Below, piece after piece: positions 24,960 to 28,234 of a stretch of 64,000 bases of DNA (the first letter of the stretch is position 1; every line of letters starts with the position of its first letter). The stretch spans positions 1,364,001 through 1,428,000 of the forward strand of contig NZ_CP036532.1 in NCBI RefSeq assembly GCF_004331955.1. Reading direction: 5' to 3'. Origin of the DNA: Roseitalea porphyridii. Lineage in GTDB: Bacteria > Pseudomonadota > Alphaproteobacteria > Rhizobiales > Rhizobiaceae. Position numbers and translations under genes: made by a program. The notes under the pieces were generated by a model. The model was given only the letters and a program-made list of their open reading frames with translations, did no database searches and had not been told where the DNA came from.

Positions 24960-25376
24960 TTACCAGCCGAACTGGAAGGTGGCGCCGGTCTGCCCGCCGG
25001 ACTGGGTGACGTGGCCTTCGGTGCCTTCGCCGAACTGGAACAGCCCGTGCGCGTTGCCGTCGCCGTTCTGGGTCAGGGTGCCGGTGTGGCCGTCGCCGTC
25101 CTGGTGGACGATGCCCAGATTGCCCGCGCCGTTCTGGATCAGGCCGGCGGCGTTGCCGATGCCGTTCTGGCTGATCGAGCCGTTCTTGATGCCGTTGGCG
25201 ATGGCATAGATGCCAAGGCCTGCGCGCATCGCCTTTTCGGCGTCGGCCGAGCCGGGCGCGATCGACACCGAGACCGAGCCGCCGGCATGGGCGGGGCCGG
25301 CCGGCAGGACGGCAGGGGCGGACAGGGCGAGGGCGGCGAGCGCGGCCTTGAGCGAGAATGTGTGAATGCGAGTCAT
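24960..25376 (-). CDS. Curlin-repeat protein (CsgA/CsgB-like), distal copy
   Basis: 138 residues. The signal peptide ends in GPAHAG (about residue 31). The mature part has a short helical stretch (SADAEKAMRAGLGIYAIANGIK), then about three curlin repeats with the Q-x-G-x2-N pattern (ISQNGIGNAAGLIQNGAGN, VHQDGDGHTGTLTQNGDGN, LFQFGEGTEGHVTQ) and a terminal aromatic Trp. Curlin repeats stack as a beta-solenoid and form the amyloid fibre of curli. Whether this is the major or nucleator subunit cannot be told. ATG at 25376 with AAGGAAA upstream. Same strand and spacing as the CsgH-like and second curlin genes. Confidence 0.85.
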   Translation of the reverse strand: MTRIHTFSLKAALAALALSAPAVLPAGPAHAGGSVSVSIAPGSADAEKAMRAGLGIYAIANGIKNGSISQNGIGNAAGLIQNGAGNLGIVHQDGDGHTGTLTQNGDGNAHGLFQFGEGTEGHVTQSGGQTGATFQFGW

Positions 25377-25502
25377 GTCGGTTTCCTTCATGGTTTGTTG
25401 GGTCTGCCCCAATGGCTGATCCGACCATGCCGCGAGGCCGCTGAACCGGGTCGGAACCGGCCGTTCATCCGGCGTTAACCATGTTTGCATCGCGCCAACG
25501 CC

Positions 25503-25531
25503 GAACGCCCCGCCGGGAGGACGGGGCGTTC
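25503..25531 (-). terminator. Hairpin after the CsgH-like gene
   Basis: GAACGCCCCG (25503-25512) pairs with 25522-25531 around a nine-base loop, just beyond the csgH-like stop on the minus strand. There is no T-run, so it may pause or protect the RNA end rather than fully terminate. Confidence 0.5.
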
Positions 25532-25568
25532 GCTGCGGTGGCGGGGTGGCGGGCAGGGCCGCCTTGCG

Positions 25569-25955
25569 TCAGATCCGGCCGCCGAGGCGCTCCTCGCAGG
25601 AGAAGCGTTCGCCACCGGCCTCCACGTCGAGCGTGACGTCGTAGGCGCCGCCGGCCGACAGCATCACCATGCCGAGCGTGGTCGGACCGCTCGGCCCCGC
25701 GTGAAAGCGCGAGCCCTGCGAGATGTTCGTGTTGCCGCCGGCGCCGGCGCTCTTGACGATGAACCGATAGCTGCCGTCCATCTCCGTGTCGGCGTGCATC
25801 AGGCCCGAGAGCTGGACCATGTTGCCGCGGTTCTCGGCGACGATTTCGCAGCGGACGGGATCGTCCGAGCTGGTGTCGCCGGCGATGGCCGAGCATCCGG
25901 TGGCCAGGCCCGCCGCGAGTATTCCGGCGGCTGCCATGAAGTGTTTGCGGGTCAT
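25569..25955 (-). CDS. csgH: CsgH-like curli assembly lipoprotein
   Basis: 128 residues. The leader ends in a lipobox (ATGC, Cys about 21). The mature part (RCEIVAENRGNMVQLSGLMHA, then SYRFIVKSAGAGGNTNISQGS and TLGMVMLSAGGAYDVTLDVEAGG) fits the CsgH fold of alphaproteobacterial curli systems, a periplasmic beta-sandwich that delays premature curlin aggregation. Two cysteines (VRCEI, FSCEE) could form its disulfide. It lies between two curlin-repeat genes, as expected. Predicted lipid anchoring is a variation worth noting, since CsgH is generally described as soluble. AAAGGAGA precedes the ATG. Confidence 0.85.
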   Translation of the reverse strand: MTRKHFMAAAGILAAGLATGCSAIAGDTSSDDPVRCEIVAENRGNMVQLSGLMHADTEMDGSYRFIVKSAGAGGNTNISQGSRFHAGPSGPTTLGMVMLSAGGAYDVTLDVEAGGERFSCEERLGGRI

Positions 25956-25977
25956 GTCGGTCTCCTTTCGTACCGAT

Positions 25978-26009
25978 GCGCCGGAGGTGGCCTCAGGCCC
26001 CTCCGGCGC
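25978..26009 (-). terminator. Intergenic hairpin between curlin and csgH-like genes
   Basis: GCGCCGGAGG (25978-25987) pairs perfectly with 26000-26009 around a twelve-base loop. It lies after the first curlin gene and before csgH on the minus strand and lacks a T-run. Such a structure may attenuate transcription so that more curlin than CsgH is made. Confidence 0.5.
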
Positions 26010-26028
26010 GTTTGAAGGGGTCCGGTCC

Positions 26029-26460
26029 TTACGGGCAGGTCTGGACGAAGGCGGCGACGTTGCCGCTGCCGGCCTGTGCGACGTCGGCGTCGCAGCCATT
26101 GCCGACCTGCACGCCGGCGGCGACGTTGCCGTTGCCGTCCTGGGTCAGGATGGCGTTGTGGTTGTCGCCGAACTGGCCGACACCGCCGGCATTGCCGATA
26201 CCCGACTGGCCGATCTGGGCATCATTGTTGAAGCCGCTCTGGCCGGTGGCGGCCTCGTTGCCGATGCCGAACTGTTCGGTGATGGCGTTGTTGAACGCGC
26301 CGTCCTGGAACACGCCCAGCTTGTTGGCGATGCCGGTCTGGCCGCCGCCGGCCGAATTGCCGAAGCCGAACTGGTCGATGGTCACGTCGTTGGCCATGGC
26401 CGGAGCGGCGAAAGCCGAAGCGATGGCGAGCGAAGCTGCGATGATGAGTTTGCGGGTCAT
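26029..26460 (-). CDS. Curlin-repeat protein (CsgA/CsgB-like), proximal copy
   Basis: 143 residues. Signal peptide ending APAMAN (about residue 23). The mature part is nearly all Q-x-G-x2-N units (QFGFGN, QTGIAN, QDGAFN, QFGIGN, QSGFNN, QSGIGN, QFGDNH, QDGNGN, QVGNGC, QAGSGN), about ten, enough for a five-rung solenoid. Two cysteines, one in NGC and one in the C-terminal TCP, are unusual in curlins and could form a disulfide near the end of the stack. GAGGAGA lies upstream of the ATG at 26460. First gene of the cluster. Confidence 0.88.
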   Translation of the reverse strand: MTRKLIIAASLAIASAFAAPAMANDVTIDQFGFGNSAGGGQTGIANKLGVFQDGAFNNAITEQFGIGNEAATGQSGFNNDAQIGQSGIGNAGGVGQFGDNHNAILTQDGNGNVAAGVQVGNGCDADVAQAGSGNVAAFVQTCP

Positions 26461-26582
26461 TTTGGTCTCCTCAGACTTGGGTTTTTTGCGACGCCTTGAG
26501 CGGCGTTGACCCATGTCTAGGAGAAGCCGGCGGAACCCATGCTGAACCCGGTGTTCAGATTGCGTTCACCATGTCGGACGCT

Positions 26583-27029
26583 TCAGAGCGCGGTGCCCTT
26601 CATCGTCTCGGACAGCAGTCTGCGCAGCCGGTCGGCGTCGTCGCCGCCGAGGTCCTGCGTCAGGTCGGCGTTGATCTGGCCGACGAGGTCGAACAGCGCG
26701 GGCGCCAGCGCCAGCCCTTCTTCGGTCGCCGTGATCTGGTGCGCCCTGCGCGAGGTGGGATGTGCCTCGCGCGCGATCAGGCCGGCCTGTTCGAGCCCGT
26801 CGATCGCCCGGCTGATCGCATAGGCCGGCATGGCGAACCGCCGGCCGATCTCGGCCTGGGTCAGGCTGCCATGCTCGAGCACGGTCATCATGACCGCGAA
26901 CTGCTGCAGGTTGAGCCCGTACTCGGCGAGGCGCGCGTTCATTGCATCGTCGAGCCGGCGGGCCAGCCTCTGGATCATCCAGCCGATCGAGGCCTCGCGG
27001 GTCTGTCTGGCGCGCATGCGTGTGTCCAT
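26583..27029 (-). CDS. MarR-family transcriptional regulator
   Basis: 148 residues with the winged helix in the middle (LTQAEIGRRFAMPAYAISRAIDGLEQAGLIAREA then SRRAHQITATEEG), flanked by the helices that form the dimer. MarR proteins usually repress their own gene and a divergent one, releasing DNA when a ligand or oxidant binds. No obvious cysteine redox sensor is present. The gene diverges from an EF-hand protein across a spacer with a perfect palindrome, so the EF-hand/cytochrome operon is its likely target. Confidence 0.88.
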   Translation of the reverse strand: MDTRMRARQTREASIGWMIQRLARRLDDAMNARLAEYGLNLQQFAVMMTVLEHGSLTQAEIGRRFAMPAYAISRAIDGLEQAGLIAREAHPTSRRAHQITATEEGLALAPALFDLVGQINADLTQDLGGDDADRLRRLLSETMKGTAL

Positions 27030-27155: not shown

Positions 27156-27659
27156 ATGACATCCGTTTCAACCGCTCTGGCGCTGATGCTGGCAGGCATC
27201 GCCGCGCCCGCCTTCGCCCAGGAGGCGCCGACATTCGGCCGCGAGGTCGCCGAGCAGACCTTCGCGTCGATCGACGAGGAGGGCAGGGGCTACATCCACA
27301 TGGGCGACATGGAGCGCTTCCGCGCGGGCATGTTCGCCGGCATGGACTATGACAACGATCTCAAGGTCACGTTCGAGGAGTTCTCGGCCTGGGACACCGG
27401 ATTCGGCGAGGTCGCCGAGGAAGAGGGCAGGCCGGACGCCTTCATCACCGCGACCAAGATCGTTTTCAGCTTCTGGGACCGGAACGCCGACTTCGTGCTG
27501 ACCGACGGCGAGATGCGCTCCTCGATCAATGCCGATTTCCAGCGCGCCGACATCGACGAGGACGGGCTGCTCTCGCAGGAGGAGTTCCTGCAGAGCTTCG
27601 GCATCATCGTCGCCATGCGCGCGGCCATCCGGCCCGACATCGACTATCGCGCCAATTGA
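27156..27659 (+). CDS. Secreted EF-hand calcium-binding protein
   Basis: 167 residues. Signal peptide ends PAFAQ (about residue 22). Three EF-hand-like loops are visible: DYDNDLKVTFEEF, DRNADFVLTDGEM and DIDEDGLLSQEEF. The first and last have the usual Asp/Asn ligands and the final Glu; a degenerate fourth lies near IDEEGRGYIHMGDM. The protein is likely periplasmic. AAGGAGG is six bases before the ATG at 27156. It precedes a cytochrome b561 gene by 26 bases, suggesting a joint role, perhaps calcium- or redox-linked. Confidence 0.85.
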   Translation: MTSVSTALALMLAGIAAPAFAQEAPTFGREVAEQTFASIDEEGRGYIHMGDMERFRAGMFAGMDYDNDLKVTFEEFSAWDTGFGEVAEEEGRPDAFITATKIVFSFWDRNADFVLTDGEMRSSINADFQRADIDEDGLLSQEEFLQSFGIIVAMRAAIRPDIDYRAN

Positions 27660-27685: not shown

Positions 27686-28234
27686 ATGTCCGCTCGCACC
27701 CAACCGATCCGTTACCACCCCGCGCTCGTCACGCTGCGTTGGCTGCTGGCATTGATGCTCGGCGTCGCCCTTGTCGCCGGCGGCCTGCTGCTCGAGAACA
27801 CGCCCAACACCGAGCCTGACAAGATCTTCATGCTGCGGGCGCACATGTCGATCGGCGTGCTGATCCTGCTGCTGATGCTGGTGCGGCTTGTCGTGCGCAC
27901 CCGTACCGCCAAGCCATCGCACGCCGTGACCGGCAACGCGCTGCTCGACAGGCTGAGCGTGATTACCCACTGGTCGCTCTACGCCGTTGCGATCGCGATG
28001 GCCGCGTCCGGCATCGCCCTTTCGATCGCGGCCGGGCTCGGCCCGATCGTCTTCGGCGGCTCGGGCGATCCGCTGCCGGCCGACTTCTGGGACTACGCCC
28101 CGCGCTATGCGCACTGGGTCCTTGCGAACCTGCTGATGGCGCTGATCGCGCTGCACGTCGCCGCGTTCGCCTGGCACCAGTGGGTCAAGAAGGACGGTCT
28201 GTTCCGCCGGATCTGGTTCGGCACCGGAAACTGA
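27686..28234 (+). CDS. Cytochrome b561-family membrane protein
   Basis: 182 residues with four predicted helices. Conserved haem-ligand His candidates are in RYHPALVTLRW, FMLRAHMSIG, ITHWSLYAVA and IALHVAAFAWHQW, the pattern of the bacterial cytochrome b561/Ni-hydrogenase-type b family. It would pass electrons between the membrane quinone pool and periplasmic partners. AAAGGAAA precedes the ATG at 27686. It is downstream of the EF-hand gene on the same strand; a di-haem peroxidase gene faces it, a possible electron-transfer partner. Confidence 0.9.
   Translation: MSARTQPIRYHPALVTLRWLLALMLGVALVAGGLLLENTPNTEPDKIFMLRAHMSIGVLILLLMLVRLVVRTRTAKPSHAVTGNALLDRLSVITHWSLYAVAIAMAASGIALSIAAGLGPIVFGGSGDPLPADFWDYAPRYAHWVLANLLMALIALHVAAFAWHQWVKKDGLFRRIWFGTGN

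Follow-up and report, generated by a model that had tools for sequence, protein, structure and literature searches.

A conserved curlin-csgH-curlin cassette of Hyphomicrobiales with no detectable CsgG pore and a shared FeuP-like promoter element

Curlin genes that come without the curli export machinery form a coherent and conserved module across a lineage of Hyphomicrobiales, and this module is distinct from the curlin loci that bear CsgG. The cassette studied here lies in a stretch of 64,000 nucleotides of the Roseitalea porphyridii genome, hereafter called the window, and both of its curlin genes are preceded by a promoter element that resembles the proposed binding site of the response regulator FeuP. 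We lean, by a small measure, towards a curlin module of Hyphomicrobiales that is functional and self-contained, works independently of CsgG and is under a FeuP-like switch.

Introduction

The gene set of the cassette was already known in 2012, and the part that is apparently new is its candidate regulation. In the sections of their survey that deal with such loci, Dueholm et al. (2012; PMC3521004) reported that many Alphaproteobacteria have only curlin subunits and csgH, and that other proteins must take the place of the missing components. The loci described there are like the cassette, with curlin subunits beside csgH and no other Csg homologue, and curlins without other Csg proteins were taken to imply another route of amyloid biogenesis. 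Those sections give neither regulation nor invariant subunit features, both of which are given here. Sleutel et al. (2023) found no CsgG in 1,033 of 43,279 genomes with CsgA, a 2014 review mentioned clusters of curlin genes in Agrobacterium and R. etli with no role assigned to them, and in R. mesoamericanum csgAB, which occupy three consecutive locus tags, decrease together on root exudate (PMC5789663). With the present analysis the pore-less cassette, which numerous relatives carry, among them Mesorhizobium, Sinorhizobium and Rhizobium, gains a candidate regulator and a candidate inducing condition, and the question of its export and function becomes testable.

An earlier note on this DNA, made from the window, had recognized the cluster and the missing machinery, both of which were borne out. 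It had also raised a CsgH lipobox, which proved to be no general feature, and it had overlooked both the 2012 outline and the shared promoter element.

Results and Discussion

Two curlins and a CsgH in a row

The genes follow one another on the minus strand in the order curlin1, csgH, curlin2 (Table 1). The curlin and CsgH profile searches suggested in the earlier note agree with its description of two curlin-repeat proteins around a CsgH relative: all three window proteins passed their Pfam cut-offs, although curlin2 lies only just above that of PF07012 (20.7 bits). Judged by eye from the sequence, all three carry Sec-type signal peptides. Q-x-G-x2-N repeats above the cut-off, together with predicted beta-solenoid models, place curlin1 and curlin2 in the curlin family, and curlin1 is probably the CsgA-like and curlin2 the CsgB-like subunit. 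The cassette thus resembles E. coli curli (csgBAC, csgDEFG) in its curlin repeats, its two subunits and a chaperone of the CsgC/CsgH fold, but differs in that its genome has no detectable CsgG, CsgE or CsgF and that curlin1 has two cysteines.

Table 1. Features of the curlin cassette and its promoters (window positions).
Feature	Position	Strand	Description
curlin1 (CsgA-like)	26029..26460	-	143 aa; PF07012 58.1 bits, E 8e-16, six stretches
curlin1 Sec-type signal peptide	26392..26460	-	predicted cleavage AMA/ND; AxA-N conserved in alignment
CsgH, periplasmic curlin chaperone/inhibitor family	25569..25955	-	128 aa; PF21112 82.5 bits, E 2e-23
CsgH signal sequence	25893..25955	-	lipobox LATGC (cysteine 21), then possible signal-peptidase-I site AIA/GD
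curlin2 (CsgB-like)	24960..25376	-	138 aa; PF07012 21.6 bits, two stretches
37-bp four-half-site element before curlin1, TGAACGCAATCTGAACACCGGGTTCAGCATGGGTTCC	26532..26568	-	candidate FeuP operator; 0 mismatches to 36-base pattern
Second element copy, before curlin2, TTAACGCCGGATGAACGGCCGGTTCCGACCCGGTTCA	25442..25478	-	2 mismatches to 36-base pattern
Putative -10 (TAGACA)	26514..26519	-	17 nt past start of last half-site

The R. palustris CsgH is a CsgC-like inhibitor of CsgA amyloid (Taylor et al. 2016; PMC4838910), and two distant cysteines serve as a criterion for the family (PMC4838910). The window protein matches the solved R. palustris structure (PDB 2n59) at E 5.6e-8 and, like it, has two domain cysteines that are distant in sequence; the profile match and this cysteine pair assign it to the CsgH family (PF21112). 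It differs from that protein in its lipobox, which most relatives' CsgH lack and directly after which the domain begins. Lipid anchoring of the window CsgH is possible from its sequence, and so is cleavage at the signal-peptidase-I site that follows the lipobox cysteine. By inspection, a lipobox is present in 8 of the 80 CsgH proteins of the named loci; the pattern itself counted 11, three of which were the CsgH domain's own cysteine. Its holders are the window's own clade, Oricola, Ahrensia and one Roseibium, with four or five further loci in the GTDB family. In the tree, where 13 rows are labelled as having a lipobox (L090 probably by mistake), the distribution calls for several gains or losses, at least four of them forced by well-supported branches. 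The lipobox noticed in the earlier note is thus real in this protein, but the data do not support it as a property of the cassette system as a whole.

The cassette is conserved and under purifying selection

Scanning the named genomes with a curlin1 alignment gave 79 loci. Across Hyphomicrobiales, 76 of them have the complete curlin1-csgH-curlin2 set in the same order; the loci belong to Rhizobiaceae, Phyllobacteriaceae, Devosiaceae, Stappiaceae, Kaistiaceae and Tepidamorphaceae, and the genera include Oceaniradius, Roseitalea, Mesorhizobium, Sinorhizobium, Rhizobium, Chelativorans, Devosia, Pelagibacterium, Roseibium, Bauldia, Oricola and others. Pairwise dN/dS values lie mostly between 0.05 and 0.4 for each of the three genes, the exceptions being one congeneric pair for curlin1 (L112/L150; 0.69) and one pair for CsgH (0.66). 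All three genes are therefore under purifying selection.

Loss of csgEFG from a full curli operon would leave the same gene set behind, so that the cassette could in principle be a decaying remnant. This we regard as highly improbable, given the purifying selection, the maintained gene order and the conserved promoters described below. It also sits badly with two genomes (G146 and G137) that carry the pore-less cassette together with a separate CsgG-bearing locus elsewhere, and in which the cassette is therefore a distinct system.

No fourth conserved gene generally recurs in the 20-kb neighbourhoods of 37 loci. An adjacent exporter or regulator was rejected, as none recurs beside the cassette in these loci, and the upstream MarR gene (window 26583-27029) was set aside, its cluster lying near just 6 of the 37. 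In the R. porphyridii genome the cassette adjoins a plus-strand gene for a secreted protein with EF-hand-like DxDxDG motifs (window 27185-27659), and a gene for a cytochrome b561-like membrane protein lies 3' of the latter (window 27686-28234, plus strand).

Invariant features of the curlin subunits

Curlin1 is 142-145 aa long in all 82 relatives and has exactly two mature cysteines in every one of them. C123 occupies the N position of a repeat and C142 adjoins the C-terminus, positions that suggest a disulphide between the two. The Q-x-G motif recurs at a spacing of 11 residues through eleven repeats in exact register. AlphaFold2 predicts an 11-strand solenoid (pLDDT 97.3), for which the best solved match found by Foldseek is the E. 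coli CsgA fibril 8enq (E 2.7e-6). Curlin2 is modelled at pLDDT 89.7 with a helix at residues 13-29 followed by curlin strands, and matches 8enq weakly (E 0.07); the alignment of relatives shows that its N-terminal segment with the helix is conserved. Regular repeats often receive high AlphaFold2 confidence, and the curlin models are therefore no evidence that the monomer is folded in the cell.

The last two residues of curlin2 are GW or GF in 74 of 76 relatives, the window copy ending in GATFQFGW. We do not claim this aromatic terminus as a BAM beta-signal: its final strand is an ordinary half-repeat of the curlin type, and E. coli CsgA likewise has an aromatic last residue.

CsgG, CsgE and CsgF are not detected

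The R. porphyridii genome, a single contig of 3,539,672 bases that is 99.99% complete, gave no match to CsgG (PF03783) at E 1e-3, and profile searches of the whole genome gave none to CsgF or CsgE. The CsgG search was positive in the E. coli and Caulobacter controls, as were the CsgF and CsgE searches in the E. coli control. The earlier note had found the three proteins missing from the 64-kb window and had placed the machinery elsewhere or nowhere; the profiles do not detect them anywhere in the genome either. The CsgG pore, CsgE and CsgF of the canonical curli nucleation-precipitation system are thus not found here. A homologue of any of the three may have diverged too far for the profiles, for example a CsgG beyond the reach of PF03783.

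The same picture was obtained with relatives. CsgH occurs in 37 of 151 genomes from the same GTDB family; of these 37, curlin repeats are present in 34, CsgG is undetected in 34 (three have it), CsgF occurs in four and CsgE in none. PF03783 was also undetected in 44 of the 50 named genomes with a cassette. Of its six matches four were weaker (E 2e-26 to 7e-8), and these may be paralogues because the model is known as unspecific (PMC3521004): where the 2012 survey treats CsgG, it describes a broad family for which the Pfam model is an imperfect detector.

It is quite conceivable, at a little below even chances in our judgement, that the cassette makes ordinary surface curli, whose subunits would cross the outer membrane by another pore, or by a highly diverged one, with its gene elsewhere in the genome, and would assemble into biofilm fibres like those of E. 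coli. Such a fibre would agree with the match of curlin1 to the CsgA fibril and with the retention of CsgH, which fits a role in holding subunits unfolded ahead of export, but an invariant cysteine pair would be unexpected in a subunit that crosses a pore unfolded. Likewise, a broad CsgG family and an imperfect model, as set out in that part of the survey (PMC3521004), could hide a pore, yet neither CsgG nor CsgF nor CsgE is detected in the genome, and no pore gene lies beside the cassette or among the inspected targets of the promoter element. The fall of R. mesoamericanum csgAB by 2.6-3 fold as motility genes rise (PMC5789663) would also suit surface fibres.

A four-half-site element precedes both curlin genes

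The element found upstream of curlin1 and again upstream of curlin2 (Table 1) has the 37-bp consensus TGAAC-N6-TGAAC-N5-GTTCM-N6-GTTCM. It reaches at least 16 of 20 before 82/82 curlin1 genes and at least 15 of 20 before 64/76 curlin2 genes, as compared with scores that are usually 10 and never above 15 in shuffled sequences. Shuffles of the window predict 0.01 matches; the R. porphyridii genome has five places with up to three mismatches, and the reversed control has none. GTTCA, on either strand, is enriched 7 to 8 fold upstream of curlin1 and curlin2, at spacings of 11 bp (direct) and 21 bp (inverted). In the 82 aligned curlin1 promoters CTCCTAnAAC stands at a fixed spacing, and in 65 of them the best -10-like hexamer begins 17 nt past the point where the last half-site starts, so that this half-site would lie at -35. 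Such a placement is typical of class II activators.

Within the cassette loci, 26 of 655 other genes have an element score of at least 15; the 20 of them that were listed are all minus-strand neighbours, most of which share the curlin intergenic space. The element is absent from the CsgG-bearing curlin loci of G146 (score 11) and G052 (score 10), whereas the pore-less cassette of G146 scores 18; the 20-kb CsgG locus of G137 has one site of 18/20. The two element copies of the cassette also set it apart from E. coli, which has csgD-controlled promoters instead. Control by CtrA was considered and rejected, as TTAACCAT was found upstream of only 3/82 curlin1 and 2/76 curlin2 genes, and full CtrA boxes numbered 0-1. 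A literature search returned no relevant paper linking FeuP with curli, and in it neither the promoter element nor control of curlins by FeuP was found described before, the published lists of FeuP-dependent genes lying outside its coverage.

FeuP is a candidate regulator

Schluter et al. (2013; PMC3616915) proposed TTCA-N7-TTCA, found upstream of 12 S. meliloti genes, as the FeuP site, a candidate motif that rests on five FeuP-dependent genes among the 12. GTTCA-N6-GTTCA, the half element of the cassette, is the same motif in letters and spacing, and it lies upstream of the curlin genes at promoter distance. The cassette differs from the osmosensory FeuPQ/FeuN regulon of S. meliloti in that the targets named for the latter where the motif is described do not include curlins, and that here two half elements face each other in a 37-bp dyad.

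One of the nine OmpR-type DNA-binding domains of the R. porphyridii genome belongs to a FeuP-like regulator (G000:C1, about 1,132,900-1,133,600) with a kinase gene next to it. The pair is followed by a lipoprotein gene, CcmI-, CcmE-, CcmF- and CcmH-like genes and a DegP-like protease gene; in front of the feuP-like gene lies a feuN-like gene for a secreted protein of 87 aa, and 24 bp before the latter a half element, GTTCAGTTTGTGTTCA. The order regulator, kinase, Ccm-like genes is what we take to be the setting of feuPQ-cycHJKL. A title in the reference list of PMC11103875 names feuPQ as adjoining cycHJKL. With cytochrome c maturation and DegP-like genes beside it and a small secreted gene in front, the arrangement is like that of S. 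meliloti, and the pair is apparently FeuP/FeuQ, an orthology drawn from gene neighbourhood and not from comparison with the FeuP sequence. On the strength of motif and neighbourhood, FeuP is a candidate for the protein that binds the curlin element.

With nine OmpR-type domains in the genome another regulator could bind instead, for instance the OmpR-family protein CenR, whose Rhodobacter site TGA-N8-TGA has TGA in common with the element (PMC9275681). The spacing of TGAAC-N6-TGAAC departs from this site, whereas letters and spacing coincide with the S. meliloti motif (PMC3616915). Moreover, the feuPQ-like operon has a half element of its own, but around the eight other OmpR-type genes a single stretch does, before an unrelated secreted protein. 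We thus consider a regulator other than FeuP unlikely, and continue with FeuP as the candidate.

Exact GTTCA-N6-GTTCA sites number nine in the 3.54 Mb of the genome, against none in the reversed control. Seven of them lie within promoter range of a gene, most often one for an exported protein. The genes are curlin1 and the feuN-like gene, two that encode secreted proteins (one of 124 aa, the other a PepSY protein encoded next to hsp20), and those for a BA14K protein, a DUF3108 protein and a GST or membrane peptide. Targets in relatives are of the same kinds. Among 40 sites in 14 genomes and those of the R. porphyridii genome, inspected by eye with a Pfam scan for a few, no outer-membrane pore was seen. 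According to the parts of the FeuPQ literature concerned with signals and targets, the system is osmosensory and controls the cyclic-glucan exporter ndvA (PMC3616915, PMC11103875, PMC12714254), and it responds to the peptide NCR247 (PMC12714254, PMC11103875).

A model for the cassette

In the model that we favour, osmotic or envelope stress would activate the sensor kinase FeuQ, and phosphorylated FeuP would occupy the element of four half-sites, the last of which overlaps -35, and so switch on the promoter of curlin1-csgH and that of curlin2. The three products would enter the periplasm through Sec. By analogy with their E. coli and R. palustris homologues, CsgH would prevent curlin1 from aggregating there, and curlin2 would nucleate or anchor the polymer by its N-terminal region. 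Curlin1, closed at its C-terminus by a disulphide, would join this polymer as a beta-solenoid. The product would then reach or enter the cell envelope by a CsgG-free route, through an unrelated pore or none.

An alternative to surface fibres is that curlin1 and curlin2 stay in the periplasm as short disulphide-capped solenoids or filaments that give osmotic or envelope stability and need no exporter, a reading that we find plausible but rather doubtful. Amyloid inside the periplasm is usually harmful, and we know of no periplasmic curlin polymer; on the other side, a periplasmic product would agree with the undetected exporter and with the other element targets, which are mostly small secreted or periplasmic-looking proteins. 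The near-constant length and invariant cysteines of curlin1 would fit as well, but the conserved length of the solenoid may instead reflect fibre register. The osmosensory nature of FeuPQ and its control of ndvA (PMC3616915, PMC11103875, PMC12714254) point in the periplasmic direction. The weights given to the surface and the periplasmic product overlap with that of the favoured model, because both fit a CsgG-independent module under a FeuP-like switch. The most specific form, a dedicated envelope-stabilising curlin polymer that is guarded by CsgH, capped by disulphides, switched by FeuQ/FeuP and never crosses the outer membrane, seems to us less likely again; if true, such a periplasmic polymer would be a functional amyloid whose location and role are both new for curli.

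Further occurrences of the cassette and the element

Several copies of the cassette or element, apparently a tandem expansion, were seen in IMCC20636 (G163, C1:570588-587039). Mesorhizobium AR07 (G192) also has multiple copies, at C1:2299973-2301092, C1:3583916-3585036, C1:5715389-5716512 and, on a second contig, C2:259048. A different, divergent curlin locus (L101 of G108, 122000-141999) has CsgH-like and curlin-like genes and a partial CsgF match in a genome without CsgG.

The element is also found beside genes of the hsp20 family, and in several genomes a gene for a small secreted basic or PepSY-like protein lies on its other side (L235, L240, L250, L256, L260, L261, L262, L265, L270, L271 and L201). 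Such hsp20-linked elements in many Hyphomicrobiales genomes point to an apparently conserved envelope regulon that is wider than the curlins. Finally, coaD-like genes have the element immediately in front of them in two genomes and close by in a third (L247, L257 and L245); as housekeeping genes they are unexpected targets of an envelope regulon.
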